DNA of 38,289 bases from a virus. The position numbers and the translations under genes were made by a program. How positions within the stretch are numbered: position 1 is the first letter of the stretch; each line of letters opens with the position of its first letter. The stretch spans positions 1 to 38,289 of IMG/VR virus record IMGVR_UViG_3300017760_000023; one strand, 5' to 3'. The notes below the pieces were generated by a model. It saw only the letters and a program-made list of their open reading frames with translations. It was not told where the DNA came from and searched no databases. Below, piece after piece: positions 11,087 through 24,383 of the stretch.

Positions 11087-11087
11087 A

Positions 11088-12008
11088 TTAAAAACCTTTT
11101 AGTTTGTATTTCATTAAATCAGAAAATTTAGTTGTTGGCGTCATTTGTATATTTTTTATTAATTTTTTAAAACCAATATCGCTAGGGTCTTTATCTTTTA
11201 AAACCATTATCCTAACATCTATACCTTCACCTAAAAACATATCTGTTATTTTTATAGTATCTGACATTGCATCATCATCTAAAGCTAAATATAAAGTTTT
11301 TACTCCAAATTCAATTATTTTTTTCTGTAGGGTTTTGGATACTGTTTTACCAAATAGTGGAATAGCATTTCTTTTAAATGCCATAGCGTCAAACACACCC
11401 TCACATAATATAATTGGTTCATCCCAATTTATGAATAAGTCAAACCCAATAACGTCTTTTGAAGTAAATGAATTTAGATATTTTAACTTACTATTATAGA
11501 AATCTCTACCCACGAAAAAATTCAGCTGACCGTTAGAATCATAAGATGGGATTATTATTCTGTTTGAATATTTACCCTCATCACAATAACCTATATTATG
11601 TTTCATTATATCATTATCGTTTATACCTCTTTTATAAAGATAGGTTAAGGCGTGTCTTTTTACTATGCCATCACCACCATTCCAAAGAGGTTTGAATTCT
11701 TTAGGTAATTTTACTAACTCTGTCTTTTTATCTTGATTATTCTTTTTATAAAACTTAGGTTCACCAACTAACTCTACAAGCTCAGAAAATTGTTCTCTTG
11801 AGGCACCAACTTTTTTAAATAGCTGAAATAAATTTCTACCACCTACATTAGAAACCCAACAATGCCACTTCTGAGTGTGTATGTTTACCTGTAGTTTTCT
11901 TTTATGATGAGATATGAAAGGAGACCAATACATAAACTCATCCGTCTTTTTGAGCTTAATACCATTGTTTCCTAATACTCTATTTATTAGATTAACAACT
12001 TTATTCAT
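11088..12008 (-). CDS. DNA primase with Toprim domain (DnaG/T4 gp61-like)
   Basis: A 306-aa protein. The N-terminal region (YWSPFISHHKRKLQVNIHTQ at 27-46, then KWHCW) follows the layout of the CHC2 zinc domain but keeps only one obvious Cys, so zinc binding may be lost. The Toprim core is clear: EGVFDAMA (203-210) supplies the catalytic Glu and LALDDDA (241-247) the metal-binding Asp residues, followed by KDPSDIG. It would make RNA primers for lagging-strand synthesis with a phage helicase not present in this window. It overlaps the upstream nuclease gene by 8 nt and leads directly into gp47/gp46, so this is a replication-recombination operon. The family call is strong; the assignment to gp61 rather than generic DnaG is inferred. 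Confidence 0.88.
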   Translation of the reverse strand: MNKVVNLINRVLGNNGIKLKKTDEFMYWSPFISHHKRKLQVNIHTQKWHCWVSNVGGRNLFQLFKKVGASREQFSELVELVGEPKFYKKNNQDKKTELVKLPKEFKPLWNGGDGIVKRHALTYLYKRGINDNDIMKHNIGYCDEGKYSNRIIIPSYDSNGQLNFFVGRDFYNSKLKYLNSFTSKDVIGFDLFINWDEPIILCEGVFDAMAFKRNAIPLFGKTVSKTLQKKIIEFGVKTLYLALDDDAMSDTIKITDMFLGEGIDVRIMVLKDKDPSDIGFKKLIKNIQMTPTTKFSDLMKYKLKGF

Positions 12009-12336
12009 CTAATAGTTCTAGTAACCTTTCCAATTCTAAAACAGCATATGTTTTAGTTCTGTTTCTTTTAAATATCAACAAAGGAGCGTGAGAACCACTA
12101 TTATTTTCCGCTTGTTCTAAAGAAGACCATATATTTAGTTTTTCTTGATTTTTACACTCTACGCTAAAAGGAAATAACTTTCTAGCGGCGGGAGATAAAA
12201 GTATATCTTCACCACTGTCACCCATTGTAGTTGAGCGAACATCATCTTCTTCTAGTTGTTGGAATTTTTCGAGGATAAGGTCTCTGACCTGATTCTGTAA
12301 CCTTTTACCCTTGTTCTTAGCTGAACGTGATTTCAT
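12001..12336 (-). CDS. Putative PDDEXK-type (Holliday-junction-resolvase-like) nuclease
   Basis: A 111-aa basic protein. The N-terminal KNKGKRLQNQVRDLI resembles the first helix of archaeal-type resolvases and VSR/PDDEXK nucleases. G-E-D-I at 42-45 and VECKN at 59-63 give the D...ExK signature of the PD-(D/E)xK fold, with Asp44, Glu60 and Lys62 as likely catalytic residues. Such phage enzymes cut recombination or replication intermediates. The gene ends inside the start of the primase gene, which fits a joint role in DNA metabolism. The ribosome binding site is weak. The fold call is based on motif spacing only; the substrate is unknown. Confidence 0.7.
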   Translation of the reverse strand: MKSRSAKNKGKRLQNQVRDLILEKFQQLEEDDVRSTTMGDSGEDILLSPAARKLFPFSVECKNQEKLNIWSSLEQAENNSGSHAPLLIFKRNRTKTYAVLELERLLELLDE

Positions 12337-12379
12337 CGGGATATTATTTTCTTTCTTTGGTTTTTAAAGTAACCTTATT

Positions 12380-12386
12380 TAAATAT
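12380..12386 (-). promoter_or_regulatory. ATATTTA motif in the gap before the replication operon
   Basis: The 67-nt gap between the NUDIX-zincin stop and the nuclease start holds GATATTTAAATAAGG on the minus strand, the same core seen in the other main intergenic gaps. It sits about 45 nt before the ATG, a plausible promoter distance. No terminator hairpin is visible. Function is inferred from recurrence only. Confidence 0.3.
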
Positions 12387-12403
12387 CAAATAAAAAGCTC
12401 AAA

Positions 12404-13276
12404 TTACAATTTATTTTTCAACTTAGCATACTCACGTCTACCCCACTTTTCGGCAATCTCCTCAAACTTGTTATCATCGTGAAAATCACCACCTTTTTGG
12501 ACGGCAATCTCACCTGCCATGGAGTATGCTTTTTCGTATTTTTTTGCACCCATCTTTTTTCTATCAAGAGCATGTTTGATTTCATGTAATACTGTAATTA
12601 AAAATTGTTTGACTGTAGGATATGATGGTCTTAAATTTATCGTATCGGTAACCCAATTATAATCCGCCATGTCTTTACCACGTGCAAATTTTATTTTAGA
12701 TTTGAGTCCATATTTTTTAACTAATCTTTCTGCTGTATCCAAGTAGTCTATTCTTTCTAATAGTAAATAACCTGTAGTGTCTGTGATTGATTTTTTAAGC
12801 GATTTTAGTTTAGATGGCCACTCTTCTGGTTTGATAAAACCTGTTGCACCCTTTAGTCCTTTTATATTTGCAGTTGTAGAGGCTTCATATAAATTATCTA
12901 ATATTCCTAATACTCTATCGTCAAATGGTTGTGGAAGATTCATTGTGTTATAATAACCCCAAGCCATATGTTCATGATTTATATGTGCATTTATTTTTTT
13001 ATCACCCTTGCATATAAAAACGTGAAAGTCTCCACCATTGTTCTTCTTAGCAACATGGGATAATTCAATATCACGATTTAGTATAATTTGGGTTTCTTCA
13101 GTAAACTCTCTATGAGCTCCTTCTTCAGGTGTTTCATCAATATGTCGATGACCCTTTGGGATACCCCATCTACCACTCGTACTTTGAACACACAATAACT
13201 CGTCATTCACAACGTAGGCAATACCTGCTGCGTGTTTGGAATCTTTTTGTTCGTTTATTTGTGCTAATTTAATCAT
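12404..13276 (-). CDS. NUDIX hydrolase fused to a HExxH zinc-metallopeptidase-like domain
   Basis: A 290-aa protein from ATG 13276; a GTG at 13288 would add four residues, but the ATG lies in the usual short overlap with the upstream stop. Residues 15 to about 135 form a NUDIX domain with a complete box GHRHIDETPEEGAHREFTEE (42-61), which matches Gx5Ex7REUxEExGU; such enzymes cleave nucleoside diphosphates linked to another group. Residues about 160-290 are separate: ITVLHEIKHALD (227-238) contains HExxH, and downstream acidic residues (E256, E272) could be the third zinc ligand, as in zincin-like peptidases. The combination in one chain is unusual. Substrates of both halves are unknown; possibilities include nucleotide-pool or RNA-cap chemistry plus a regulatory or structural zincin. 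Confidence 0.82.
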   Translation of the reverse strand: MIKLAQINEQKDSKHAAGIAYVVNDELLCVQSTSGRWGIPKGHRHIDETPEEGAHREFTEETQIILNRDIELSHVAKKNNGGDFHVFICKGDKKINAHINHEHMAWGYYNTMNLPQPFDDRVLGILDNLYEASTTANIKGLKGATGFIKPEEWPSKLKSLKKSITDTTGYLLLERIDYLDTAERLVKKYGLKSKIKFARGKDMADYNWVTDTINLRPSYPTVKQFLITVLHEIKHALDRKKMGAKKYEKAYSMAGEIAVQKGGDFHDDNKFEEIAEKWGRREYAKLKNKL

Positions 13277-13490
13277 TACAATGCTCACAAGTACAGGTAC
13301 TTAAATCACTAGGTAACTCTGTCCTTGTGATGTCTTCTCCGTTACTATATTTGAAAGTCATATTACTTGAGTTAGCCCATTTAGGTTTAACAATAATATC
13401 TTCTATTGTTAAATCTTCAATGTGACATTTACAAGTGTTACAAACTTTTGATATTTGTTGACCACTGCTAGTGAATCTAACTTTTATCAT
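13269..13490 (-). CDS. Small Cys-rich protein, possible zinc ribbon
   Basis: A 73-aa frame from ATG 13490; a longer frame with extra upstream residues exists but would overlap the preceding gene. Two Cys groups, CNTCKC near residues 17-22 and CTCEHC near 66-71, could bind one zinc ion. The start lies 1 nt after the upstream stop, and the end overlaps the NUDIX-zincin gene by 8 nt, so it is part of a tight operon. No family recognised. The zinc ribbon is an inference from Cys spacing; a nucleic-acid or protein-binding adapter is plausible. Confidence 0.65.
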   Translation of the reverse strand: MIKVRFTSSGQQISKVCNTCKCHIEDLTIEDIIVKPKWANSSNMTFKYSNGEDITRTELPSDLSTCTCEHCND

Positions 13491-13491
13491 T

Positions 13492-13917
13492 TTACCAAGT
13501 TCTACAAGCCCAATATCTCGCCTTATACTTTGGGCCTGGATTATCACAATTGTGTCTTGCTCTGAACGATTTACGAGCTTTTGGATTTGATTTACGTATT
13601 CTCATCGTACCACCCTTGGCATCACCACCTTGTCCAAAGTTTACTTTCACGACATTACCTTTATCGTTTTTAACGTAAACTTTAAATTTCTTAGCATCAC
13701 CTTGCATTATTTTATTGAGCTTAACTTTACGACCTTGGTATTCAGCCTCTTCCATTGGTTGTTTTTCAAACTCGAAAGTGTATCCACAACTTTCATTTTG
13801 ATTTTCCCAATAGATATCGTAAACTTCTTTAACACAATTAGGCACCATCTTACCATTCTTTTCTTTCATGCCTATCTGTTGATATCCAACCCAACAAGTT
13901 CCTCGTTTTTCGTTCAT
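13492..13917 (-). CDS. Conserved phage protein with C-terminal RHNCDNPGPK/KARYWAC motif
   Basis: A 141-aa protein from ATG 13917, preceded by AAAAAAGG; an upstream TTG would add six residues but overlaps the neighbour. The N-terminus contains RGTCWVGYQQIGMKEKNGKM and NC. The C-terminus is basic and ends SFRARHNCDNPGPKYKARYW plus ACRTW, a Cys-containing signature I recall from many T4-like marine phage proteins of unknown function. Four to five Cys residues could form a metal site. It sits in a run of small basic proteins (13269-15009) with overlapping or near-overlapping ends, suggesting co-translation. No enzymatic motif is seen; a nucleic-acid-binding or virion-internal role is possible. 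Confidence 0.75.
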   Translation of the reverse strand: MNEKRGTCWVGYQQIGMKEKNGKMVPNCVKEVYDIYWENQNESCGYTFEFEKQPMEEAEYQGRKVKLNKIMQGDAKKFKVYVKNDKGNVVKVNFGQGGDAKGGTMRIRKSNPKARKSFRARHNCDNPGPKYKARYWACRTW

Positions 13918-13919
13918 GC

Positions 13920-14135
13920 TTAACCTTTTTTCCAACCACCACCAGCGGCTTTGTATTGTTTAGCTGCCCAAGCGTTTGCGTAAGCTGATGGATATACATC
14001 AAACTTCTTTTTAGCTTGAGATTTATAGTAAGACCATTTTGATGGATTTGTTGGAACATTCTTTTCAAAGAACATCTCAAACTTTTCCTCTATAAAAGCC
14101 TCTTTTACTATTTGTTTTAGTTCATCAACTTTCAT
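13920..14135 (-). CDS. Small conserved phage protein (SAYANAWAAKQYK motif)
   Basis: A 71-aa frame from ATG 14135. An acidic N-terminal helix (MKVDELKQIVKEAF) is followed by a conserved core, KWSYYKSQAKKKFDVYPSAY then ANAWAAKQYKAAGGGWKKG. This core is a common small domain in phage genomes, of unknown function. The same reading frame stays open upstream to a TGA at 14337-14339, so the ATG may be internal to a longer fused protein (see the broken gene upstream). The stop lies 2 nt before the next ATG. Family recognised by pattern only. Confidence 0.7.
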   Translation of the reverse strand: MKVDELKQIVKEAFIEEKFEMFFEKNVPTNPSKWSYYKSQAKKKFDVYPSAYANAWAAKQYKAAGGGWKKG

Positions 14136-14372
14136 TTTTTTTCTCTTTTTTCTTGGATGTGAGTGTGACGACTCATCAGTTGGATTAAGTCTACTTATAC
14201 TTACATTTTTGTAAAGTTTATTACCGAATTGTATATCTACAATTTCAACTTTACCATCTTCACTTAATGAGTGCCAAGTTACTTTACCGACACCCTCATT
14301 TTTTCGCTTAGGAGACCCCCAAGTCGCGTGGTGGAATCATTGATGTTGAACTGATTTATTATAAGTATCCAT
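14136..14372 (-). pseudogene. Conserved small phage domain interrupted by an in-frame TGA
   Basis: From ATG 14372 the frame reads MDTYNKSVQHQ, then TGA (14337-14339), then continues in the same frame with FHHATWGSPKRKNEGVGKV, VEIVDIQFGNKLYKNVSISR and LNPTDESSHSHPRKKRKK, running directly into the MKVDEL start of the next gene. The post-TGA stretch has clear protein character (balanced composition, basic tail) and no internal Met, so it looks like a real domain cut near its N-terminus. TGA is a genuine stop elsewhere in this window. Options are a mutation, an assembly error, or readthrough. An A8 run just before MKVDEL is another possible error point that would otherwise separate the two genes with an ATGA overlap. 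Confidence 0.55.
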
Positions 14373-14380
14373 ATTATTAC

Positions 14381-14545
14381 CTATTTTCGTTTTTTTCTTC
14401 CTGCACAATGTGCTTTTTGACTAAAACCTTTTGGGTTGTTACAATCAATACTTTTCTTATATTTTTGACTCCACTTTTTTTCTTTAACAACTTCATATAA
14501 GTGAAGACAGCCACAATCAAATTTTTCTACGAGATATCTATGCAC
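14381..14545 (-). CDS. 54-aa basic Cys-containing phage protein
   Basis: The frame runs from a GTG at 14545, inside the end of the upstream gene (8-nt overlap), to TAG at 14381. It starts MHRYLVEKFDCGCLHLYEVV and ends SIDCNNPKGFSQKAHCAGRK plus KRK. Cys at 11, 13, 35 and 47 could bind a metal. The NPKGFSQ-AHC ending looks like a recurring small phage motif, which supports a real gene despite the non-ATG start. A basic tail suggests nucleic-acid contact. Function unknown. Confidence 0.65.
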   Translation of the reverse strand: MHRYLVEKFDCGCLHLYEVVKEKKWSQKYKKSIDCNNPKGFSQKAHCAGRKKRK

Positions 14546-14900
14546 CTGTTTTTACCTTGATGGTCTTTTGCCCTTTACTTCTTTCACCACCTTTTTTGGG
14601 CTCACCACCTTTTTTCTGTGCTTTTCTTTTTCTATTGACAAATGCTGCGATTCCCTTTTTACCAAGTTTTCTAGCCTTTGACTTTGATAGACAGGCTGCA
14701 TACGCTCCACCCTCTTCACCATCACCACATTTTCCTAGTTTTTTACCAGTAGAGGAATACCTATCCCAACCTCCACCGCCAGAACCACCTGCACCACCTT
14801 TACCAAACCACTTTCGTAGGTCTTCATTTGTGTAAGTTCCACAGAAGATACACTTATTATCTTCTATAAGTTCCAATACCTGTTTTGTTTTTTGATTCAT
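14538..14900 (-). CDS. Conserved basic phage protein (GGGWDRY...AACLSKSKARKLGKKG), DUF6321-like
   Basis: A 120-aa protein from ATG 14900. It has an N-terminal CIFC pair, a Gly-rich segment with GGGWDRYSSTGKKLGKCGDG, then AYAACLSKSKARKLGKKGIA and a Lys/Gly-rich tail. The middle matches, from memory, the pattern of DUF6321, a small family of phages and environmental sequences; I cannot verify this here. The strong positive charge points to DNA or RNA binding, for example capsid-packaged or chromatin-like roles, but this is inference. It overlaps the 50-aa gene upstream by 44 nt and the 54-aa gene downstream by 8 nt. Confidence 0.75.
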   Translation of the reverse strand: MNQKTKQVLELIEDNKCIFCGTYTNEDLRKWFGKGGAGGSGGGGWDRYSSTGKKLGKCGDGEEGGAYAACLSKSKARKLGKKGIAAFVNRKRKAQKKGGEPKKGGERSKGQKTIKVKTGA

Positions 14901-15009
14901 TTTTTTCTAACCATTTTTTATATTGTTTAGCTGTTCTACCTTCTCTAGCCAATTTTTTGTTAGTCAAAATTCTTTTTCTTTTTCTATCTTTCGCATTTCT
15001 GTTCGGCAT
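14857..15009 (-). CDS. 50-aa very basic phage protein
   Basis: Frame from ATG 15009 to TAA 14857. It begins MPNRNAKDRKRKRILTNKKL and continues AREGRTAKQYKKWLEKN, about 40 percent Lys/Arg. The MPNR-AKDRK opening recurs in small marine phage proteins, by my recollection. The last 44 nt overlap the start of the next gene in another frame. Likely nucleic-acid binding; otherwise unassigned. Confidence 0.6.
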   Translation of the reverse strand: MPNRNAKDRKRKRILTNKKLAREGRTAKQYKKWLEKNESKNKTGIGTYRR

Positions 15010-15027
15010 ATTCTCTACCTATAATTA

Positions 15028-15270
15028 TCAACTTTTACCATTTTCTTTATTTCCACCCATTACTTTTTCAACACCAGCGATACCAAAACACCCTAAAGTA
15101 ATATATAGAAAACTATTATAAACAAAGTCATTAATAGGTAAATCTAAACCCATATAACCTGTTATTAAATCCACTGCACTATACATTCCCATGATAGTGA
15201 ATGATAAAAATCCAATGATTGTTTTTTCATTAAACTCATTTTCATCTTTAAATATATCTTTAAAAGCCAT
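15028..15270 (-). CDS. Small two-TM membrane protein, holin candidate
   Basis: An 80-aa protein from ATG 15270 with GGAAA upstream. A charged N-terminus (MAFKDIFKDENEFNEKT) precedes two hydrophobic segments, about residues 17-38 (TIIGFLSFTIMGMYSAVDLI) and 50-68 (VYNSFLYITLGCFGIAGVEK), joined by a short loop, with a charged tail. Size and topology fit a class II-type holin or a phage inner-membrane regulator. It is followed by tandem stops TGA TAA and lies 1 nt after the TM/coiled-coil gene, which strengthens a lysis interpretation. No recognised endolysin is in the window, so this stays tentative. Confidence 0.6.
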   Translation of the reverse strand: MAFKDIFKDENEFNEKTIIGFLSFTIMGMYSAVDLITGYMGLDLPINDFVYNSFLYITLGCFGIAGVEKVMGGNKENGKS

Positions 15271-15271
15271 T

Positions 15272-15991
15272 TTATTTCCAATCCCAAAGTTTTACTAAGT
15301 TGTAAGTTATTCCAAAACCCCATATAGGTTCTGTCAATCCTGTAACCGCGTTATAAGTAACTCCAACCATTGGCCCAAAAGATATTTGGTTTCTTGGTGG
15401 TTTTAGACTTATAGGTTTACTTTCTCCACCCGTAAGTCTCAATCCATCAAAGGATTTACTTGGTAGTACAGCCTTGAACTCATGTTTACCTATCTGTTCT
15501 ATTTCAGGTGCTCCTATATTTATTTCACCATCAAAAGATAAATCAGTTTCAGAGTCTAAGATTTTATTATCTTTTATCTTCACGCCTGTACGACCGAAGA
15601 TTCTTAAATAATTATCTTGTACACCAAATTCTTTTTCAAATGGTATTAAACCACTCTCACCTAAAGATATCTCAAATTTTACTGAATCAAGAGATTCTCT
15701 TAGGTTATCAATTCTTTGTTCGTATTCTTTTTCCCAACGAACTCTTTCGTAATGTTTTGTTTTTATATCTTGTATTTCATTTACAAGTTTTGCTCCGTGG
15801 TTGTTTAATTTCACCACTTCAGTTTTAAGAGTATCTATAGTGTATTCATTTTCTTGGATAAGTTGTTCTTGTCTAACTGAATCTTCTTTTAAAAAATCCA
15901 TTTCTTGTTTAGCATAATAATAACGGACACCAACAACTGCAAGAACAGTTGCTATGTTTAACAATACACCTATAACAAATTCTTTTTTCAT
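15272..15991 (-). CDS. Membrane-anchored coiled-coil protein with C-terminal beta domain, spanin candidate
   Basis: A 239-aa protein. One N-terminal hydrophobic anchor (FVIGVLLNIATVLAVVGVRY, residues 5-24) is followed by a charged coiled coil to about residue 110. A beta-rich C-terminal part ends SFGPMVGVTYNAVTGLTEPI then WGFGITYNLVKLW, a hairpin-like pattern typical of outer-membrane-facing proteins in Bacteroidota phages. The arrangement (inner-membrane anchor, periplasm-spanning coil, distal beta element) would suit a one-piece spanin that joins the two membranes at lysis. It starts in an ATGA overlap with the 46-aa gene upstream and is followed by the two-TM protein. Function is inferred from topology. 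Confidence 0.6.
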   Translation of the reverse strand: MKKEFVIGVLLNIATVLAVVGVRYYYAKQEMDFLKEDSVRQEQLIQENEYTIDTLKTEVVKLNNHGAKLVNEIQDIKTKHYERVRWEKEYEQRIDNLRESLDSVKFEISLGESGLIPFEKEFGVQDNYLRIFGRTGVKIKDNKILDSETDLSFDGEINIGAPEIEQIGKHEFKAVLPSKSFDGLRLTGGESKPISLKPPRNQISFGPMVGVTYNAVTGLTEPIWGFGITYNLVKLWDWK

Positions 15992-16128
15992 TTAGATAAC
16001 TCCTTACTTGCATAATCAGATAAAACATCTGGTAACCAAGCGTGTATGAATAAAGCTCCACTCATCTTCATGGCTCTCCACCAATGTTTCCAATATCCTA
16101 TATTATTTTCTTTTAAATGTTTCATCAT
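15988..16128 (-). CDS. 46-aa small protein, DUF6356-like
   Basis: Frame from ATG 16128 (an ATGATG doublet, AAGGG upstream) to TGA 15988. It reads MMKHLKENNIGYWKHWWRAM then KMSGALFIHAWLPDVLSDYA. The pattern of HL, GY..H, a hydrophobic stretch, then IHA..P resembles DUF6356, a family of short bacterial and phage proteins with no known function; I make this link from memory. The C-terminal hydrophobic helix may insert into or lie on the membrane. Its stop overlaps the ATG of the spanin-like gene (ATGA), so it is co-translated with the candidate lysis genes. Confidence 0.6.
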   Translation of the reverse strand: MMKHLKENNIGYWKHWWRAMKMSGALFIHAWLPDVLSDYASKELSK

Positions 16129-16130
16129 TA

Positions 16131-17069
16131 TTAACCCTTGTGAATTTTACCTTTTCGTTCTTTGAACCATTTTCTAAACTGAGCAGGTGAACCGATAGTA
16201 ATTGGTTTGTTACCACTTGCTGTTGATAATAATTTTTCTATTTCAACTTTAGCCAATACACTATTATCCAATACTCTTTGCATTACAAATATATCTATTA
16301 TCTTTGTATCATAAACAAGAAGTTCATTCCACCAAGCAGTTCTTTTATTATGTTTAGAATTAATCAAACTCTTCTTGAATAGTTTTTTATTTTTAAGTAA
16401 AGTTTTGTTTGCTACATCAATATAATCTTTTACATATTTGTTAATGACTGGCCCTTGTGCTTTTTTAACTTGCTCTTTATAGTCATCATAACTAATCCTA
16501 TTAGGGTCATCACTTGGTAACATCCATCTGTCGTGATATTCTCTCTCTATATCGGTCATTTTATCACTAATACTATCATAATCAAGTTTAGAAGATTTTA
16601 AAGCATTTGTCCATATCATACTATCCTTATCAAACACATGCCAAGCCTTTACCCATCTACGACCTTGTTTATCAGGTGTTGTATCAAAATCCATAGACCT
16701 TTTTGCTAATAAATGTCCCTCTACATAACAAATAATACCACCCATACCTGTTTGAACACCACGACCTTTAGCTAATGATTCATCTTCGTGAGTTGCTGTA
16801 AATGTAGATATAGTTTTTTTTCTATTGAGAACATATTTAAGTTGTCGTATTCCATCTGGTCCTGTAATGTGAAATGATTTTACAGGTATTTTTTTACCAA
16901 GAGCTTTCTCCACAACCGATGGTGTTAGAGGAATCACATCTCTTTGACGAACCCAATTCAATACGGATTTTGTGTGAGCGGGATACCACTTATTATCTAT
17001 CCAACTAGGCCCAGCTTGTTTAGATGGTGCATAAGTGGATTCCATTAATAAATCTTTAAGTTTAATCAT
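16131..17069 (-). CDS. Unassigned 312-aa phage protein (KKTISTFTAT motif)
   Basis: The N-terminus MIKLKDLLMES is a common opening of marine phage proteins. VKSFHITGPDGIRQLKYVLN then RKKTISTFTAT, and later GIICYVEGHLL, form an alpha/beta core reminiscent of some phage ADP-ribosyltransferase-like proteins (a basic residue followed later by S-T-F-T), but the catalytic Glu motif cannot be assigned confidently. The C-terminal half is helical and Lys-rich (residues about 200-312). No signal peptide or TM segment. It starts in an ATGA overlap with the CsgG-like gene upstream. Function unknown. Confidence 0.6.
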   Translation of the reverse strand: MIKLKDLLMESTYAPSKQAGPSWIDNKWYPAHTKSVLNWVRQRDVIPLTPSVVEKALGKKIPVKSFHITGPDGIRQLKYVLNRKKTISTFTATHEDESLAKGRGVQTGMGGIICYVEGHLLAKRSMDFDTTPDKQGRRWVKAWHVFDKDSMIWTNALKSSKLDYDSISDKMTDIEREYHDRWMLPSDDPNRISYDDYKEQVKKAQGPVINKYVKDYIDVANKTLLKNKKLFKKSLINSKHNKRTAWWNELLVYDTKIIDIFVMQRVLDNSVLAKVEIEKLLSTASGNKPITIGSPAQFRKWFKERKGKIHKG

Positions 17070-17671
17070 TTGTATTGCTTCATCGCCTCGTCTATAGCTT
17101 TTCTAATAGCTCCACCAAACTCACTTTGGTTAAAAGGTAGGTCTTCTTCAATCTGTAATCCTGTAGCAGATATATCTGTTTGGATTGTTCCAACACCTCT
17201 ACTTGATACCACCTTATCCGTAGCTACCTCTCTAACCAAAATATTCATACGAACTTCAGTCTCAGACTTTCTACGACTGAACAAACCGATGATACTGAAT
17301 GCTTCGTCTGGTCTTCCAACCCAAACAATCTCAGCTGACGCTATAAAATCTGCGTTGTCATCAGCTACTAACTGATACTTACTATCAGAGAAAGCCTCCT
17401 CCAATAACTGACGAACACCCATAGTAGTCCTATTATCTGTGATACCTGTATTTTCAGATACCTTAACAAACTCACTAATCTTTAACTTTGGTATTCTTAA
17501 ATCCTCACCTAAAATAGCAGGTTGTGGTAATGCAGATTCTTTTTGTTCTTTTCTTTGTTTATCACGTTCATTTTCACGTTCTAATCTTGAACGCATAATC
17601 TCACCTTGACCTGATGCTATTTCCATCATAGCGAACCCAAGTAGTAAGAAAATTAAAAATCTACGTTTCAT
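17066..17671 (-). CDS. Exported CsgG/LpoB-like protein
   Basis: A 201-aa protein with a signal peptide (RRFLIFLLLGFAMMEIASGQ, cleavage near residue 20). A charged linker (21-50) leads to a CsgG-type alpha/beta domain (about 56-200). It contains LRIPKLKISEFV, a helix, FIASAEIVWVG, the strand-turn-strand TEVRMNILVREVATDKVVSS, then GVGTIQTDI and the family-like ending EEDLPFNQSEFGGAIRKAID. There is no lipobox Cys, so it is probably periplasmic. CsgG proteins form the outer-membrane secretion pore for curli; related folds (LpoB, FlgT) regulate cell-wall or envelope machines. It is separated by 9 nt from the barrel gene and pairs with the CsgG-like lipoprotein at 18667. CsgG genes have been described in pelagic myoviruses; the role here is inferred. 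Confidence 0.7.
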   Translation of the reverse strand: MKRRFLIFLLLGFAMMEIASGQGEIMRSRLERENERDKQRKEQKESALPQPAILGEDLRIPKLKISEFVKVSENTGITDNRTTMGVRQLLEEAFSDSKYQLVADDNADFIASAEIVWVGRPDEAFSIIGLFSRRKSETEVRMNILVREVATDKVVSSRGVGTIQTDISATGLQIEEDLPFNQSEFGGAIRKAIDEAMKQYK

Positions 17672-17680
17672 TTTTGTCTC

Positions 17681-18661
17681 CTAAAAATAAGTTCCAAGTA
17701 ATACTGAAAAGGTTTGATTTCTTTTACCATAATCATTTACCACGGTATTATATCCCATTGATACACCCACATTGAATGTAAATGCCGTTCCAATCTTCCA
17801 ATCAAACGAGATGGTTGGAAAAAAGATAATGGGACTTCTCAATAATAAATATCTACCACCATCAATATTCCCCTCATAATACCTCAATAGTGTATAAGCT
17901 ATGTAGTTTGAGAACGTCACATCACCAAACGTGAATTTTGCAGGATACCTCATAGCGTACAAAGCTGTTATATTACCAAATCCAACTCCACTCACACTTC
18001 CATAACTACCAGTTAATACTGCAGCTTGTGAATTTTTCTTTTGTAATGATTTAGCTGCAGATGTCGATAATAACCAATCCCACCCCTCAAAAGTCTGATA
18101 GGTCAATCCACTAGCAGATAATTGTACATTTTGTTTTTTTGCTTTAAATCTAAAACCTCTACCATATGTAAGAGATGTTTTTTTAAAATCATCAGTAAAA
18201 TTAAAGTTACCATCGTGTCTACTATTACCATCGAATGATGTAGCCGTGTACACACTATTAAATTGTGTTATCCACCTTTCTTCACCTCTTGTAGAACGAA
18301 TCGCATAGTTGACCTGTGTTGGGTCATTACTAATATCACTTTTAGTAAATTGTTCAGAAACGTTATCCGCTATAACAGATGATAGCACCTCCTCAGCCAC
18401 TCTGACTGCACAAGGAAATAATTTCTCAAAATCTCTATATACATCTTGAGTCCATTGTTCTAACTCACCACTTATGACTTGTTCTAATGTGAAAAATTTT
18501 GTACGATTGTAGTACGTGACTTGAAACCCCTCTGTGCCGTTTTGTAAACTTGTGGATGTCCTAACTGTTGTTTGTTCACAAGGGTCTATATAACTATAAA
18601 AGAATGATTGGGCAGAGATACTACTCAATAAAAATAAAAAACTAAATAACCTCTGCCCCAT
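17681..18661 (-). CDS. Outer-membrane beta-barrel protein between two CsgG-like genes
   Basis: A 326-aa protein with a clear signal peptide (MGQRLFSFLFLLSSISA then Q). Residues about 18-115 form a helical periplasmic or plug-like region with two Cys. From about 140 on, alternating strands such as FRFKAKKQNVQLSASGLTYQ, ITALYAMRYPAKFTFGDVTF and FTFNVGVSMGYNTVV end in SVLLGTYF. A terminal Phe is the usual outer-membrane barrel signature. No family recognised. Position between two CsgG-like genes suggests that it joins them in an envelope assembly. The ATG lies 6 nt after the lipoprotein stop. Confidence 0.7.
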   Translation of the reverse strand: MGQRLFSFLFLLSSISAQSFFYSYIDPCEQTTVRTSTSLQNGTEGFQVTYYNRTKFFTLEQVISGELEQWTQDVYRDFEKLFPCAVRVAEEVLSSVIADNVSEQFTKSDISNDPTQVNYAIRSTRGEERWITQFNSVYTATSFDGNSRHDGNFNFTDDFKKTSLTYGRGFRFKAKKQNVQLSASGLTYQTFEGWDWLLSTSAAKSLQKKNSQAAVLTGSYGSVSGVGFGNITALYAMRYPAKFTFGDVTFSNYIAYTLLRYYEGNIDGGRYLLLRSPIIFFPTISFDWKIGTAFTFNVGVSMGYNTVVNDYGKRNQTFSVLLGTYF

Positions 18662-18666
18662 TCATA

Positions 18667-19302
18667 TTACCAACCTCGTCTGTCAATAGCTTTTATAACA
18701 TTGACTACGGCTGTCTCCATAGCTTTATTTGATGCGGAACTGAGAGAACTTTGGTTCCAATCCATATTTGGATTCATAAGAAACCCCTTACCTATAGTCG
18801 ATGCGGTTCCTCTACCACTACCGACAACATATTGTGTGTTCTCGTTATTAATCAACTTTACTTGAATACCGACAAAAGTCTCGTTGATTGTTTCAACCTT
18901 ACCAGCTTTTATCTCTTCTTTTAAGTTAACACCGAAATCATAAATACTAACACTAGCTGAATATTTAGCTTTTGTAATCTTGGCTTTGTTAGCTTTCAAA
19001 TCATTCATAATTAAAAGTTGCATATCTCTTTCGGCTTCTATCAGATTAAATCTACCGATATAAGATATCACGTTTTGAAGTTCTTGAACCAAACCCATAG
19101 AAACTCTCTTCTCAGCGAGTTCAGGATATCTTTCTTCTAACTCCTTATTAAACTTTAAATCATATAGTTTTAAACCATCAACTTTTGTGACTTCAACTTC
19201 ATCTAATGATTTTTGTTTTTCATACTCACCGACATATTGCTCGGTTGATACAGAAGCCGCACAACCAAAGAATACTAATACTAATGGTAATATTTTTATC
19301 AT
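18667..19302 (-). CDS. CsgG-like lipoprotein
   Basis: A 211-aa protein; the ATG at 19302 is chosen because it overlaps the upstream stop (ATGA) and places a lipoprotein signal (MIKILPLVLVFFGC, Cys14) at the start; a longer frame begins at 19314. The mature part has a helix VSMGLVQELQNVISYIGRF (the region where CsgG has SAxxMLVTALKDS), ASVSIYDFGVN, GIQVKLINNENTQYVVGSGR, and ends ETAVVNVIKAIDRRGW, closely similar to the ETGV...IDRGLW ending of CsgG. In curli systems CsgG is a lipid-anchored nine-subunit outer-membrane channel. No curlin (CsgA/B), CsgE or CsgF was recognised nearby, so the cargo is unknown. Confidence 0.75.
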   Translation of the reverse strand: MIKILPLVLVFFGCAASVSTEQYVGEYEKQKSLDEVEVTKVDGLKLYDLKFNKELEERYPELAEKRVSMGLVQELQNVISYIGRFNLIEAERDMQLLIMNDLKANKAKITKAKYSASVSIYDFGVNLKEEIKAGKVETINETFVGIQVKLINNENTQYVVGSGRGTASTIGKGFLMNPNMDWNQSSLSSASNKAMETAVVNVIKAIDRRGW

Positions 19303-19670
19303 TTGTCTCTCCATATAATTGGTTTTTTACCACCATCTTTTTTCTTATCCATCCAAGAATCTTCACCGACTTTATATCCGATGTAATATGAAACACCCGC
19401 AACAACTAATGTCTGAATCATACGACGTGTTCTCATCTTCTTACGAGCTTGTCTCACCACCATTTGTTTCTTTTGAGCACCTTGTTTCTGATTCATTTTC
19501 ATATGTGCTCTTTTATGAGCGGATTCATATTTTTTGAAATCCCAATCTTGAATTGTTTTTACTACTTTTTCACCTGCAGTTTCTTCGACTTCTTGTCCAA
19601 CTAATTGTGTACCTACAGATAATGCTATTATTATAGCAAATAATATCCAAAACTTTTTATTATCTTTCAT
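19299..19670 (-). CDS. Small membrane/exported basic protein in the surface island
   Basis: A 123-aa protein. The N-terminal hydrophobic stretch FWILFAIIIALSVGTQLVGQ (7-26) could be a signal peptide or anchor. The centre is Lys/Arg/Gln-rich (HKRAHMKMNQKQGAQKKQMV and RKKMRTRRM). A second hydrophobic segment, IQTLVVAGVSYYIGYKVGE, precedes a charged end. Start and stop are both coupled: TAATG with the upstream gene and ATGA with the CsgG-like lipoprotein. Unassigned; co-translation suggests a helper for the CsgG-like proteins. Confidence 0.65.
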   Translation of the reverse strand: MKDNKKFWILFAIIIALSVGTQLVGQEVEETAGEKVVKTIQDWDFKKYESAHKRAHMKMNQKQGAQKKQMVVRQARKKMRTRRMIQTLVVAGVSYYIGYKVGEDSWMDKKKDGGKKPIIWRDK

Positions 19671-20050
19671 TATTCTCTCCTTGTGGTTCTTCTACCACCA
19701 TTACTTTTTCCACCGCCACCTCGGTTACCACCTTTACTTCCACCACCTCGGTATCCACCTTTACTTCCACCATTGTTAGTACGTCTTCTGTATTCACCAC
19801 TTCTTTTTTTCTTTGGTTTGATGTAAACATATTTAGGTGTGTCTACATAATAATTTACACCATAGTAATAATCCCTATAGTTTTTGTTCCAATAGAGGTC
19901 TGAATATGAGTTTCTAAAATGTACATCATAATATACGTTGTAATACGCTTGAGAAACTTTTGTACTATCGCTTGGTAAGACAGGTTCTCTGTCGAAACTA
20001 CCAATCGAAATGCCGATAATTAAACCAGCTATGAGTTCTAATATTCCCAT
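19670..20050 (-). CDS. Tyr-rich/Gly-Arg-rich low-complexity protein with N-terminal hydrophobic segment
   Basis: A 126-aa protein in three parts. First, a hydrophobic N-terminus MGILELIAGLIIGISIGSF that could be an anchor. Second, a very Tyr/Asn-rich middle (AYYNVYYDVHFRNSYSDLYW, NYRDYYYGVNYYV). Third, a Lys/Arg/Gly tail (GGYRGGGSKGGNRGGGGK) coded by 27-bp tandem repeats. The composition is unlike the enzymes around it and reminiscent of sticky surface or amyloid-like proteins, but no curlin repeat is present. Coupled TAATG to the next gene. Function unknown. Confidence 0.65.
   Translation of the reverse strand: MGILELIAGLIIGISIGSFDREPVLPSDSTKVSQAYYNVYYDVHFRNSYSDLYWNKNYRDYYYGVNYYVDTPKYVYIKPKKKRSGEYRRRTNNGGSKGGYRGGGSKGGNRGGGGKSNGGRRTTRRE
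19717..19770. repeat. Two tandem 27-bp repeats coding Gly-rich tail
   Basis: Two nearly identical 27-bp units (19717-19743 and 19744-19770) encode GGSKGG-aromatic/Asn-RG steps within the Gly-Arg-rich protein. Copy-number change by slippage would lengthen or shorten the tail in frame. Confidence 0.8.
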
Positions 20051-20057
20051 ATATCTC

Positions 20058-20447
20058 CTATCTAAAATCTGATAAAGGGTCTTTAAGTAGTTTTTCTAAC
20101 TTCTTGATTTCTCTTTTTAGATTTTTGATTTCATTGTTTAAGTTAGCTACATCTTTATCATAAGACTTAACTTTAGGTGTTTTCATACCATCAACTTTTT
20201 CACGAAGATATTTGAAATCCTCATCATACTTATCAAGTTTAGTTGTCACTAATTCTATATCACTCGCTTCAGCAAAGCCTTCAACGATTTCTTCTAATCC
20301 ATCGATACGACCAGTAAATGAATACCAACCTGCGATACCTGTGGATAAAACCGTTACAAGCGCTATGATATTTTGGATTGATAATCCAAACTTTTTATTT
20401 TTTATTTCTTCGACTGCAGCTTCTGCATCTACTACGTTTTTAGGCAT
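20058..20447 (-). CDS. Membrane-anchored coiled-coil protein
   Basis: A 129-aa protein. A short charged N-terminus is followed by one hydrophobic segment (about residues 24-45, IQNIIALVTVLSTGIAGWYS) and a long heptad-rich part, with two helices separated by MKTPKVKSYD. The last helix reads VANLNNEIKNLKREIKKLEK. Topology suggests an inner-membrane anchor with a periplasmic or cytoplasmic coil. It lies 1 nt after the PorV-like barrel gene. It might act as a membrane-spanning tether, or as an alternative i-spanin; no family recognised. Confidence 0.65.
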   Translation of the reverse strand: MPKNVVDAEAAVEEIKNKKFGLSIQNIIALVTVLSTGIAGWYSFTGRIDGLEEIVEGFAEASDIELVTTKLDKYDEDFKYLREKVDGMKTPKVKSYDKDVANLNNEIKNLKREIKKLEKLLKDPLSDFR

Positions 20448-20448
20448 T

Positions 20449-21297
20449 TTACAACTCCAAGTTTATTGTTAATCTAAATGTGTTACTTACTGGTAACGTC
20501 TGGTCTCCATAAATATAACTCATACCTATAAAGTATTTGTCATACTTTAAATCCACACCAAATGTAGGATATGATAACTCATGCGACTTATCTGAATAAT
20601 ATCCAGCTTTAGCTAAAATTGTTGCCTGGTTTTTTACCTCGTATTTATATGAAGCACCCATACCAGATGTTACGTGTCCATTATAAATATTATGTTGTTC
20701 ATAGAACATCCATTGTTTGTATGGATATGTCATGGCTACATTCAAGCTGGTTGGTAATTTTGTTTTATACGTACCGAATGTTGGAGCAAATCCAAAGTTT
20801 TTTATAGCCACATCTACATCTAAATCTTTATAAACTTTTGGTAGGTATGTTGCTACATCAAATGCGGTTCCGTGTGTTTTTTGTGTATATAAATCATGTG
20901 ATAAAACTTTACCAGTTACACCGACGTTATATCCTTTTATCACAGTTCCCCAGCTGACACCCCATACTGAACTCATAGGTGAAAACCTACCTGTAACCAC
21001 ACCACTTATGTCTGTTTCTAATTGTTGTCCGTAGTTGAATATTAATGCATATACATCGAATGAACCTCTAGCCAAATTAAAGTGCATATAGTTCATATCA
21101 TCGACAATATTACCCAACCAATTGACCCTCGTAAAAGTAAATTTATCATTATCAATATGATTTCTAGCAGGACTCATCATTGGTAACGTTACGTTTCCAA
21201 TCGAACTCGTGTGCGCAGACGGAGATATCGTAAGTAAATTATTTGCTTGTGCAAATAGATTACTAAAAAGAAGTAATGTTAAGAATATTTTTTTCAT
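20449..21297 (-). CDS. Outer-membrane barrel resembling T9SS PorV/PorQ
   Basis: A 282-aa protein with signal peptide MKKIFLTLLLFSNLFAQ. The mature start LLTISPSAHTSSIGN then MMSPARNHIDND follows the opening of PorV/PorQ-type barrels (Ser-x-x-Ala...Gly...NPA). Repeated amphipathic strands follow (GSFDVYALIFNYGQQLETD, YKYEVKNQATILAKAGYYS, FGVDLKYDKYFIGMSYIYG) and it ends SNTFRLTINLEL. In the type IX system PorV collects cargo with the C-terminal sorting domain and passes it to the PorU sortase; PorQ is a related barrel of the attachment complex. It lies directly after a T9SS-type cargo gene, coupled through a 35-aa ORF. The assignment rests on pattern and context, so PorV versus PorQ is open. 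Confidence 0.6.
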   Translation of the reverse strand: MKKIFLTLLLFSNLFAQANNLLTISPSAHTSSIGNVTLPMMSPARNHIDNDKFTFTRVNWLGNIVDDMNYMHFNLARGSFDVYALIFNYGQQLETDISGVVTGRFSPMSSVWGVSWGTVIKGYNVGVTGKVLSHDLYTQKTHGTAFDVATYLPKVYKDLDVDVAIKNFGFAPTFGTYKTKLPTSLNVAMTYPYKQWMFYEQHNIYNGHVTSGMGASYKYEVKNQATILAKAGYYSDKSHELSYPTFGVDLKYDKYFIGMSYIYGDQTLPVSNTFRLTINLEL

Positions 21298-21401
21298 TTT
21301 TTTCTCTCTACCTTTTCAGCAAACCACACGATGAACTTCAATGTCCAATATAATGCTGGTAACATTATAGCTAATGCTAAAAAGAATTGCCATTCATCCA
21401 T
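21294..21401 (-). CDS. 35-aa single-TM peptide coupling cargo and barrel genes
   Basis: The frame starts at ATG 21401 within the stop of the cargo gene (TAATG) and ends with TGA overlapping the ATG of the barrel gene (ATGA). It encodes MDEWQFFLALAIMLPALYWT then LKFIVWFAEKVERKK, one long hydrophobic helix with a basic end. The exact double overlap argues that it is translated. It could be a membrane helper, a small holin-like peptide, or mainly a device for translational coupling. Confidence 0.6.
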   Translation of the reverse strand: MDEWQFFLALAIMLPALYWTLKFIVWFAEKVERKK

Positions 21402-24313
21402 TATTTTACCACCGTAAATTTATTAGCTTTCAATCTCTTTTCCGTTTGTAATACAAAAATATAAACACCAGGTTCTAACTTTTGATGTTTTTCATAAATA
21501 CTCATCTCAGGTATCCAAATGCTTGGTTCATTTGTAAAGTCAAAGGTATGTAATCCTTCAAATACATACTCGTTTAATAACGTTCCGATTCTCTGACCCA
21601 TTGAGTTTAAAATGTACAACTTTACGTTCTGTGATTCACTTAAGTAAAATTGAAATACTGTATTTTCTTTAAATGGATTCGGATAATTGTATGTTATACT
21701 TTCACTATCTGGCTTTGAACCTCCAAATGCCCAATACTTATTCCATACCTCGACATACCCATCACTCTTGTGTACAATCAAGTCCTCACCATTTGGTGTC
21801 GACGCCGCACTCTTACCAACAAACTTAATAGGTGCTGTGTATAATTCTTCTGCTTCAGGAAACTCTGCCTCAAATAATAATTTAAGACCTATCATTTCTG
21901 CTGTTATATGATACGTCTCTGGTGCATTGTTAGGTGAGTAATCGATACCACCAAATGAAACCTTTTGCCATCCAGCTATTGGGTCATGTACGTTTACATA
22001 GGTCATCCAAGGGCCAGGTAATACGTCGGTTTTCATATCAATAAACTTCAACGCTCTAGTATCAAACTCTACCTCAAACTCAAAACCAGCAACAATAACA
22101 TTATCATTTGGTATGATTGTTAATGGTACTTCGATTTGATTACCAGATTGTACCCTAACAGTAGAGTCTGCAGGTAACGATAGATAAACATCAGGTTGAA
22201 CACTTGAGTCTATTTTTGTTTTGTTCAAAGAACCAGCGGTAGGATTAAACTTATTCACATGATGACCTGGTGCACTAACACCTTTCCATCTATGATACAT
22301 TATATTAGAAGCTATATCATTTTGATATCCGTCACCACCACTCTCTGTAACTTTTGTACCTGTAGTATTTACATCACCAGTAAAGTAATATCCAATATCA
22401 GGCATCAGATAGTCAGGATTACCCTTCTGATTATTTCGTTCATATAATCTATCCTTGTGCCATTCAGAATATCCAGCACCCAATACTAAATGTAATGTAT
22501 CTAAACCAGTTTGTGCATCATTCATTAGAGGGTTTAATATTTCTATTTGACCAACAAAGTTACCGGATACATCTAATGCTTTTTGAGCATCTACAAGAGC
22601 CTTTGTTACAGTCATTGGAGCTTTCAAACTATCCACCCAACCAGCACTATTGTTTACAAAGTAAGCTGGATTCTCATTTGTTCTGTCAAGTCTCGACTTT
22701 TCTGCTATCGTGGTCTCATCCCAATAAACCGTGAACTCATATTTCTGTGGTCTTGACTGACCATTAACAGTTTGATAGTATGTGTAACTTGTATTGTTAC
22801 CATTAAAGTTATCTATTGTAGACCAATCCTCATAAGAGTTTCCGTTGTGGTGCGTATAGTTACTCATAATACCTGAAACGTATGACCACAATATGTATGT
22901 GTCATTTAAGAAAAACTTATCATCACCATCGACATCACCTATCAAGTATTCTATAGCAGTCAAGGTATCTATACGTGTGCCACCTGCATTATAATTTTTA
23001 TGTTTACTTGATTGAAAGTTAAACGATTTTATAGCATCAGCTACAGTTGTAATGTCATCCCTATCCAACTCAAGAATCGTATGACCAGGTATTCCGTCAG
23101 ACCCATCTGGTGGCCAGAATGACATACGATATCTATTGTTTCTTGGTAACTGAATATTATAATATCCCTTATCATCGGTGTAAGTAGAATCATAATATGA
23201 TATACCTAAGAATCCCTCACCAGGTAAAGTAGCATCACCAGTTGATGCGGTGTTTCCATTGAGAGCTTTTTTGTTAAATCTAAATGTGGAGGCGTGGTCA
23301 CCGATAACATCGTCACTTCCATCCTCGTCAGCTGTATTAGCATCATTAGCAATATCTTCTAAGTTATACCAATTTGTTATTCTTGGGTTAAAGTTAGCTT
23401 CATTTCTATCTAACTCAAACTTAATCTTCCAATACGGATATGTATTTTCCGCTTGTGTGTTCCACGATTCACCAGCCGCTCTGCCATGACCACCAGCATA
23501 TCTAAAGTACCCTTCAACATCCAATAATTTTGGGTGTAGTGTTATATCACCTCTAGCCCCATCAAGGTTAGTTGATTCAGTTCCATAGTTACCATCAATA
23601 TAAACCTTATACGCTGATGCGTAATTACCATTAGTAACGTAAGTATAATACCCAGTATTATTCTCATACTCGGTAGCTACCCTAAAACTTCTAGCATTAA
23701 AATTATCAGCTACGTCATTCACTTTAAAATGTAATTTTAATAATTCTGTTTGATTACCATCACCATTACCGAAAGTATGTGTACTTCCGTTGTGTGATAC
23801 CATAGTTATTCTCAACCAATCATATCTACTATCACTAGCTGATTTCTCACTACCAGCACTAGCTATACCATCTGTATAACCAACGTTGTTATACCAAGTT
23901 ACCTCATATGAATAATGATGACCATTCTCTCCATTATCACCCTCAGTCCAACCAGCGATATAAGCTCCCTTTTCAACCCGCGTCGAGTCGTGTCCTGTAG
24001 TTGTTGTATTGTCCCAAGTAAATAAATCATTATCGAACACTAAATCTAAACGAAAGGCCGTGACACTAGCACCATTGTCATCAAGTGTGACGGCTACTGT
24101 CATTACAGAATCTCTCCAAGCGTCAAAGTTATTATTCTTATAGGCAGGGGTTGAGGTATCGTCAGCCAAGTATGTTCTCAAGTCTTGAGTCACTTGGTCT
24201 CTCCACCAAAACTTTGGTGTCTTATATGTTCTCGATTGCATGAGTCTGATAATTGGTGTCTGAGAGTATGCAAAACCCATAACCATTAACAGAGTCAATA
24301 AAAATTTACGCAA
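21401..24313 (-). CDS. Exported protein with cohesin-like and dockerin-like parts and a C-terminal T9SS type A sorting domain
   Basis: A 970-aa protein from a TTG start (24313), with AGGAG 7 nt upstream; no ATG fits the signal peptide (FLLTLLMVMGFAYSQ). Residues about 68-205 and 708-855 look like cohesin-type beta sandwiches (VTAFRLDLVFDNDLFTW; VAGFEFEVEFDTRALKFIDM). Residues 458-480 (IGDVDGDDKFFLNDTYILWS) match the calcium-binding dockerin pattern. The C-terminus from about 873 (YNYPNPFKENTVFQFYLSES, VKLYILNSMGQRI, PGVYIFVLQTEKR...K) is a canonical type A sorting domain, used in Bacteroidota/FCB bacteria for export by T9SS and attachment to lipopolysaccharide. It is coupled to the 35-aa ORF and the PorV-like barrel. 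Its location in a phage late-gene array is unusual; function may be surface remodelling, adhesion or exclusion. Confidence 0.85.
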   Translation of the reverse strand: MRKFLLTLLMVMGFAYSQTPIIRLMQSRTYKTPKFWWRDQVTQDLRTYLADDTSTPAYKNNNFDAWRDSVMTVAVTLDDNGASVTAFRLDLVFDNDLFTWDNTTTTGHDSTRVEKGAYIAGWTEGDNGENGHHYSYEVTWYNNVGYTDGIASAGSEKSASDSRYDWLRITMVSHNGSTHTFGNGDGNQTELLKLHFKVNDVADNFNARSFRVATEYENNTGYYTYVTNGNYASAYKVYIDGNYGTESTNLDGARGDITLHPKLLDVEGYFRYAGGHGRAAGESWNTQAENTYPYWKIKFELDRNEANFNPRITNWYNLEDIANDANTADEDGSDDVIGDHASTFRFNKKALNGNTASTGDATLPGEGFLGISYYDSTYTDDKGYYNIQLPRNNRYRMSFWPPDGSDGIPGHTILELDRDDITTVADAIKSFNFQSSKHKNYNAGGTRIDTLTAIEYLIGDVDGDDKFFLNDTYILWSYVSGIMSNYTHHNGNSYEDWSTIDNFNGNNTSYTYYQTVNGQSRPQKYEFTVYWDETTIAEKSRLDRTNENPAYFVNNSAGWVDSLKAPMTVTKALVDAQKALDVSGNFVGQIEILNPLMNDAQTGLDTLHLVLGAGYSEWHKDRLYERNNQKGNPDYLMPDIGYYFTGDVNTTGTKVTESGGDGYQNDIASNIMYHRWKGVSAPGHHVNKFNPTAGSLNKTKIDSSVQPDVYLSLPADSTVRVQSGNQIEVPLTIIPNDNVIVAGFEFEVEFDTRALKFIDMKTDVLPGPWMTYVNVHDPIAGWQKVSFGGIDYSPNNAPETYHITAEMIGLKLLFEAEFPEAEELYTAPIKFVGKSAASTPNGEDLIVHKSDGYVEVWNKYWAFGGSKPDSESITYNYPNPFKENTVFQFYLSESQNVKLYILNSMGQRIGTLLNEYVFEGLHTFDFTNEPSIWIPEMSIYEKHQKLEPGVYIFVLQTEKRLKANKFTVVK

Positions 24314-24383
24314 TGTAAATCTCCTAATATTTCAAAAAAATTAGTAACCTTTTAGACTAAAAAGTATAGACTTTATTTCACTA

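Follow-up and report, generated by a model that had tools for sequence, protein, structure and literature searches.

A predicted type IX secretion cargo and a PorV-like outer-membrane barrel encoded side by side in T4-like phages

Described systems closest to the phage locus

Phages alter the surfaces of their hosts mostly by means of small membrane proteins or surface-modifying enzymes. Phage genes with sorting domains of the type IX secretion system (T9SS) have also been described: a phage-encoded T9SS cargo was published for Cryophage, for which a hijack of the host T9SS was proposed (Bellas 2020, PMC7468147), and a T9SS domain was found in a crAss-like BACON open reading frame (ORF; PMC6949934). 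Here we analyze a locus in the IMG/VR virus record IMGVR_UViG_3300017760_000023 (38,289 bases, hereafter the window), in which the gene of a presumptive T9SS cargo is followed by that of an outer-membrane barrel resembling PorV, the partner of type A cargos in cellular T9SS. We think it probable that the two proteins represent a T9SS cargo and a PorV-like partner that puts this cargo on the host surface. The locus has in common with Cryophage and the crAss-like phage ORF that a phage gene carries a T9SS sorting domain, and differs from Cryophage, whose cargo genes are variable and for which the accessible part of the article mentions no shuttle, in that one cargo is conserved together with the barrel. 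A preliminary description of the locus knew of no described system of this kind. Given the published phage cargos this needs correction in part: phage T9SS cargo itself is already known and the new part is the phage PorV-like partner, of which no report was found in the literature searched (open-licence full text only).

Among cellular systems, Flavobacterium johnsoniae uses PorV for type A sorting domains, while the gene of a type B cargo often has its own PorP/SprF-like shuttle gene next to it, which two of these cargos need, as far as the available part of the paper reports (PMC12618676). Another study indicates, in its accessible part, that a PorP/SprF-like barrel may retain its cargo on the cell as well (PMC9143113). 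By analogy, the gene order of the phage locus resembles two cellular arrangements, namely porU-porV and the type B adhesin with its own SprF-type shuttle. Like the latter, it comprises a surface protein, as predicted, with a cognate shuttle encoded directly downstream; unlike it, the phage cargo is of type A, the barrel matches models of PorV/PorQ and not of PorP/SprF, and the pair is viral. The porU-porV arrangement, in which PorV likewise follows a sorting-domain gene, is presumably represented by three of our cellular loci (L131, L138 and L222), where a C25 peptidase with under-cut-off sorting-domain or FlgD-like matches at its C-terminus is encoded directly upstream of PorV. In addition, two PorV-family paralogues of Neomarinimicrobiota (L159 and L163) are encoded immediately after proteins that match CHU_C or Por_Secre_tail weakly, which suggests, on the basis of these profile matches, further cargo-barrel pairs in cells; the proteins tested at two further Neomarinimicrobiota PorV-paralogue loci (L150 and L166) had no Pfam match. 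Outer-membrane secretion parts are also known from other marine myophages, since pelagimyophages and Melnitz carry the curli pore genes csgG/csgF, for which a role in lysis was proposed in the accessible part of the report (PMC9004378); these belong to another secretion system.

The cargo protein and its linkage to the barrel

All genes of the locus lie on the minus strand. The cargo gene (21401..24313) starts with TTG and encodes 970 amino acids (aa), so that the ORF of the preliminary description was confirmed. Its signal-peptide-like N-terminus (MRKFLLTLLMVMGFAYSQ, 24260..24313, minus strand) was recognized by a crude hydropathy test rather than a dedicated predictor, and the same test found an export-type N-terminus in 80 of 80 distinct cargo N-termini. 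An AGGAG resembling a Shine-Dalgarno sequence can be read ahead of the start codon (24321..24325, minus strand), inside a 112-nt gap. A T4 late promoter was also considered as a candidate element before the cargo and dismissed, as the coding strand has no TATAAATA in the 120 nt ahead of the gene and the nearby copy lies on the opposite strand.

The T9SS type A sorting domain claimed for the C-terminus was recovered by TIGR04183, which matches residues 877–967 (21413..21685, minus strand) with 25.8 bits at an NCBI cut-off of 23; a second scan gave 28.8 bits at 21410-21685. The window cargo aligns end to end with 15 relatives, and the sorting-domain model is matched in all 16 of these proteins. 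Of 15 phage records, 14 carry one sorting-domain protein each that scores over the TIGR04183 cut-off; on the 15th contig (L040) the cargo gene is truncated by the contig end. Of the two cohesin-like regions described earlier, one was retained: PF00963 matches a single stretch (residues 718–763; 22025..22162, minus strand) with 25.0 bits at a cut-off of 24.1, spanning model positions 7–52 of 139, and a cohesin match at E ≤ 0.01 is found in 16/16 aligned cargos. A second cohesin had no Pfam match in the cargo at E ≤ 1, and the profile of the cargo N-terminal region compared with that of the C-terminal cohesin gave an insignificant result (hhalign probability 0.8%). The dockerin-like calcium loop could not be upheld either, since no Pfam dockerin matched at E ≤ 1; a DVDGDD loop is visible by eye.

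Between the cargo and the barrel lies TM35, a 35-aa ORF with a single transmembrane (TM) segment judged by eye (21294..21401, minus strand), the start of which overlaps the cargo stop by 1 nt and the stop of which overlaps the barrel start by 4 nt, in line with the double overlap described earlier. The barrel gene itself (20449..21297, minus strand) encodes 282 aa with a signal-peptide-like N-terminus, and an export-type N-terminus was found by the hydropathy test in 46/46 distinct barrel N-termini.

To assess the distribution of this arrangement we turned to other assemblies. Searches by tblastn with the window cargo and barrel gave no match in 50,697 phage records (at E ≤ 0.01 and at E ≤ 0.1). 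In IMG/VR, the cargo is present on at least 112 distinct contigs besides the window record, coming from 93 metagenome identifiers, with one of the five scans having kept the best 80 of 128 relatives. The same gene order on contigs of so many other assemblies rules out a chimeric assembly. The sorting domain, detected with a profile of the phage C-terminal domain, is present in all 67 contigs with a complete cargo 3′ end, and the barrel lies at most 600 nt away in 63 of the 63 contigs with 150 nt or more of sequence beyond the cargo stop. In four further contigs the cargo is complete but fewer than 150 nt follow it; one of these still shows the barrel start. Because most contigs were found via the cargo or the sorting domain, the counts for these two are partly given by construction, and the barrel count is the informative one among the linkage counts. 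Neither the 112 contigs nor the 63 linked ones are independent events, since many are close relatives: L002 and L003 differ hardly at all from the window, and numerous others are almost duplicates of one another. The spacing between cargo and barrel is –3 to 12 nt in 33 of the 63 contigs, 103 to 107 nt in 15 and 53 to 496 nt in the rest. TM35 was detected in 23 of them and undetected in 40; hence the translational coupling through this ORF that the preliminary description had proposed is not general.

Compared with five relatives, the ratio dN/dS amounts to 0.04–0.19 for the cargo, 0.12–0.24 for TM35 and 0.11–0.25 for the barrel, values that are rough because dS often exceeds 1. Judged by these ratios, all three genes are under purifying selection. 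This bears on an alternative in which the cargo would serve in the virion as an adhesin or tail protein, its sorting domain being just a beta-sandwich cap, with an unrelated barrel next to it. The cargo does adjoin baseplate-proximal genes, and the slot that it occupies in the marine group, between the homologue of p369 and the primase, opens in Flavobacterium phage immuto (NC_055915.1) with genes for one tail fibre and two tail spikes, where the marine phages have the cargo-barrel block. In the four relatives in which all could be compared, however, the dN of the cargo is lower than that of the neighbouring p369 and p347, the reverse of what a variable adhesin would show. Together with the export-type N-termini of cargo and barrel and the presence of the barrel in every contig reaching it, this makes a virion adhesin very improbable in our view.

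Kinship of the barrel and the proposed shuttle function

The barrel had been described as resembling the T9SS cargo receptor, PorV or PorQ. When the window barrel and 14 relatives were searched at E ≤ 0.01, PorQ was matched by 15 of the 15 phage barrels, PorV_fam by 14 (best E 3.5e-36) and PorV by 13. The 90-bit cut-off of PorV_fam (NF033709) was exceeded by five of nine relatives scanned singly, with 103.7–125.4 bits. PorP/SprF was rejected as an identity of the barrel, as it is absent from the four NCBIfam families matched by the 15 barrels at this threshold. A profile of the 15 barrels found PorV (6h3i) in the PDB at E = 1.4e-11. We further modelled the barrel from 15 sequences (pLDDT 74.3, pTM 0.73), replacing an earlier poor model from six sequences (pLDDT 50.9). 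The top Foldseek match of this model is PorV in the substrate-bound T9SS complex (8gl6; E 2.0e-7, TM-score 0.62 on the query), and PorV is also the top match in VIA (Z 21.9, root-mean-square deviation 4.1, 255 aligned), so that the structural comparison recommended earlier yields a FadL/PorV fold with PorV first in both programs, in VIA tied with FadL. Against viral structures, Foldseek gave one match at E ≤ 0.001, a nameless entry.

Profile comparison matched the phage barrels with a PorV of Neomarinimicrobiota at 2.5e-25 over 274 columns and with a PorQ of Flavobacteriales at 7.7e-14 over 253 columns. In a tree of 106 proteins, computed with a quick method and rooted at the midpoint, the 28 phage barrels fall into a single clade (SH-aLRT 98) next to that of cellular PorV (98), with a joint support of 96, and the 19 PorQ rows are placed elsewhere; the cellular PorV and PorQ labels were assigned by N-termini and gene neighbours, without a separate family scan. 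Hence the barrel is a member of the PorV/PorQ superfamily, and by tree and profile comparisons it appears nearer to PorV than to PorQ, which was its first curated match and which we set aside as its identity for this reason. With PorV (6h3i and 8gl6, from F. johnsoniae) it shares the FadL-type barrel fold, family-level sequence similarity, a full-length profile match and the position after a sorting-domain gene. It differs in its length (282 aa versus 402 in the 6h3i chain), in lacking a long internal segment, in forming a clade of its own outside cellular PorV, in being phage-encoded and in being linked to one cargo instead of serving all.

Several observations weigh against a cargo with its own PorV-like partner. 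As to the cargo, the Pfam sorting-domain model PF18962, matched at E ≤ 0.01 in 11 of the 16 aligned cargos, reaches 17.7–18.2 bits in the window, below its cut-off of 27. TIGR04183 itself also matched in a control without known T9SS, Deinobacterium chartae, two of the 14 control genomes giving a match at E ≤ 0.001 and one of them scoring over the cut-off. The export test is likewise passed by p369, a presumed virion protein, at 1.64 with a threshold of 1.6; it does so barely and via an internal stretch, and the other 12 of the 13 further window genes tested stay below the threshold. As to the barrel, that of the window is the sole one of the 15 without a PorV_fam match (none at E ≤ 1), and the equivalog cut-offs were reached neither for PorV (NF033710, 250 bits; the best of the 15 barrels, from L030, scores 80.9 bits) nor for PorQ (NF033711, 220 bits; best score shown 62.4 bits, best E of the 15 barrels 1.2e-18). 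Near window residue 200 the phage barrel is without the long segment of cellular PorV, so that its cargo-binding surface may differ. In VIA, FadL ties with PorV (Z 21.0), and FadL-type channels carry no protein cargo. Finally, type A cargo should already have its shuttle in the PorV of the host, so that another one seems unneeded; possible gains from a second shuttle would be dose, specificity or anchoring.

A different explanation would see in the barrel a channel, PorQ-like or FadL-like, that the phage captured for uptake or as a decoy receptor, while the cargo relies on the PorV of the host only. Besides the tie with FadL-type channels, this explanation could draw on the only curated match of the window barrel taken alone, which is to the PorQ model (E = 2.5e-10, 39.9 bits versus the equivalog cut-off of 220). 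The preference of tree and profile comparisons for PorV over PorQ and the strict linkage to a sorting-domain gene speak against it, and we regard a captured channel as improbable.

If cargo and barrel indeed are a T9SS substrate and its partner, both would be exported by Sec, as their N-termini indicate. The host SprA translocon, which is present in the candidate hosts examined, would then engage the type A sorting domain and draw the cargo across the outer membrane, where the compact PorV-like barrel of the phage may receive it from SprA, in the same way that PorV handles type A cargo. The phage barrel would probably keep the cargo on the surface of the infected cell, acting as both shuttle and anchor. 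The likeliest purpose would be a change of the infected-cell surface that blocks the adsorption of further phages or stops progeny from sticking; superinfection exclusion in particular is a first and tentative guess, with lysis as its main rival. A conserved viral pair exploiting a whole dedicated protein secretion system would, if true, represent a different order of host-surface control. For T9SS research it would also provide a PorV-like protein that is minimal by nature and has one cargo, and a means of asking whether such a barrel can serve a type A cargo as shuttle and anchor alike. The evidence seems to us evenly balanced for a more far-reaching proposal, according to which marine T4-like phages of one lineage encode a type A T9SS shuttle of their own and use it to commandeer host SprA on behalf of just one core phage protein. 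Provided that the tree is rooted on the PorQ side, this shuttle would have separated ahead of the divergence among the sampled cellular PorV lineages. In this proposal the pair opens a multi-gene envelope-remodelling block that is in part shared with immuto, and its cargo evolves more slowly than the two neighbouring virion genes.

A T9SS would be needed in the host for a cargo with a PorV-like partner to function. All 12 candidate-host genomes have an SprA match over its cut-off, against none of the 14 controls. As to the host phylum, the lines of evidence conflict between Flavobacteriales and Neomarinimicrobiota. The cargo C-terminal half and the barrel are present on a 9.2-kb contig of a metagenome-assembled genome (MAG) binned as Flavobacteriales NAT55 (L112 / G001:C68), with 72% identity over the sorting domain. 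This contig surfaced only with the sorting-domain profile, and the full cargo profile found no relative among the genome contigs scanned. At E ≤ 1e-30 the cargo profile matched in one of 395 Flavobacteriales and in none of 245 Neomarinimicrobiota genomes, a comparison in which few candidates per genome were scored and which had no positive control. By gp6 and primase, the nearest isolated phages are Microcystis phage Mel-JY01 and immuto, of which the latter, like the MAG contig, speaks for Flavobacteriales. Barrel similarity speaks for Neomarinimicrobiota: the closest cellular barrels among the fetched loci are PorV proteins of this phylum (104.8–134.6 bits), followed by that of a Bacteroidetes MAG (L144, 98.4 bits), eleven Flavobacteriales PorV (72–83 bits) and Algibacter (38.7 bits). 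Tetranucleotide usage does not separate Flavobacteriales from Neomarinimicrobiota, and one sample in this comparison (G139) has a GC of 0.15 and may be masked. Seven small Neomarinimicrobiota genomes (0.8–1.0 Mb) also have a compact PorV of 311–314 aa. As a side observation, small genomes of this kind (G015, G037, G045, G073, G096, G108, G112 and G125; 0.8–1.0 Mb) contain SprA and two to four sorting-domain proteins each; four larger genomes have 42–91 each.

Genomic context and the block of predicted exported proteins

In support of the assignment to a T4-like phage and its late-gene strand, the window encodes a gp6-like baseplate wedge upstream of the cargo-barrel block, and cargo, TM35 and barrel share the strand of the window's baseplate and fibre genes. 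A Gp23 capsid protein (258 bits) is moreover encoded on the 65.6-kb contig of one relative, the only match in 15 records searched, which are mostly fragments and include the window record. The order of the upstream virion genes p372, p1423, p210, p347 and p369 is kept in immuto and in Mel-JY01.

Behind the barrel, on the same strand, follow cc129 (20058..20447), a TM and coiled-coil protein encoded right after the barrel and with homologues behind the barrel in relatives; the short proteins p126 (19670..20050) and p123 (19299..19670), the latter with a signal-like N-terminus; and the exported proteins p215 (18667..19314), which has a lipobox-like FFGC recognized by eye, p326 (17681..18661) and p201 (17066..17671). 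Each of the six has a hydrophobic stretch near its N-terminus, in p126 without a preceding K/R, so that positions 17066-24313 represent a run of about 7 kb of predicted exported or membrane proteins. The cargo-barrel pair and the exported genes behind it may thus be viewed as an envelope-remodelling block. As an observation of its own, p326 is flanked by two paralogous members of a single exported family, p215 and p201 (17066-19314), an arrangement also found in immuto (gp017 and gp019). A kinship of p215/p201 with CsgG, considered on reading the sequence, was not supported when Pfam and the PDB were searched by profile.

The same genes could instead constitute a lysis or release module, in which the barrel, the lipoprotein-like p215, TM35 and cc129 would destabilize the envelope at a late stage of infection, with the cargo doing no more than coat or weaken the surface at that time. 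In this direction point matches to Rz-like spanin by cc129 (weak, E 0.0024, besides XhlA at E 0.078), by p239 (15272-15991; E 0.0005) and by two of 18 members of the p215/p201 family (best E 0.0014), as does the lysis role proposed for the curli pores of marine myophages in the accessible part of PMC9004378. Weak matches are, however, usual for coiled coils, cc129 having 34 Pfam matches at E ≤ 1 that are mostly to unrelated coiled coils. Besides, lysis has no need for a conserved sorting-domain protein of 900–1000 aa, and TM35 was undetected in 40 of the 63 contigs. A lysis module is therefore unlikely in our estimation, though less so than the virion adhesin and the captured channel.

Part of the block recurs in immuto. 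Its gp015 is a protein of 243 aa with an export signal that is annotated merely as cohesin domain-containing; cohesin scores 36.7 bits (cut-off 24.1), PF18962 34.6 (cut-off 27) and TIGR04183 46.5 (cut-off 23), and the phage cargo profile matches the cohesin region of gp015 with 28 bits in a search of only seven proteins. A TM protein follows gp015, and then gp017, gp018 and gp019, which are homologous to p215, p326 and p201, respectively, with the gene order preserved. The stretch gp013–gp019 thus shares with the window a protein with cohesin and T9SS sorting domain followed by these three homologues, and differs in the size of gp015 (243 versus 970 aa in the window cargo), in its location elsewhere in the immuto genome and in the barrel: no PorV-like barrel was matched in gp013–gp019 or in the stretch around the slot, with the rest of the genome covered by tblastn only. 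Because related genes, including that of a T9SS-tagged cohesin protein, occur in an isolated Flavobacterium phage, the idea of a phage-encoded cargo and envelope block is partly testable in culture. In the surrounding region of immuto (10527-16409, L308), gp015 lies within a run of exported-looking proteins, with a C-type lectin, gp013, two genes before it.

Two further features were noted in passing. In the window, a 235-aa ATG open frame (35554-36261, plus strand) runs antisense to the baseplate wedge gene and is possibly a by-product of codon use. In Mel-JY01 (L306, 12490-21436), the slot holds several extra p347- and p369-like proteins, an expansion of a virion gene family.

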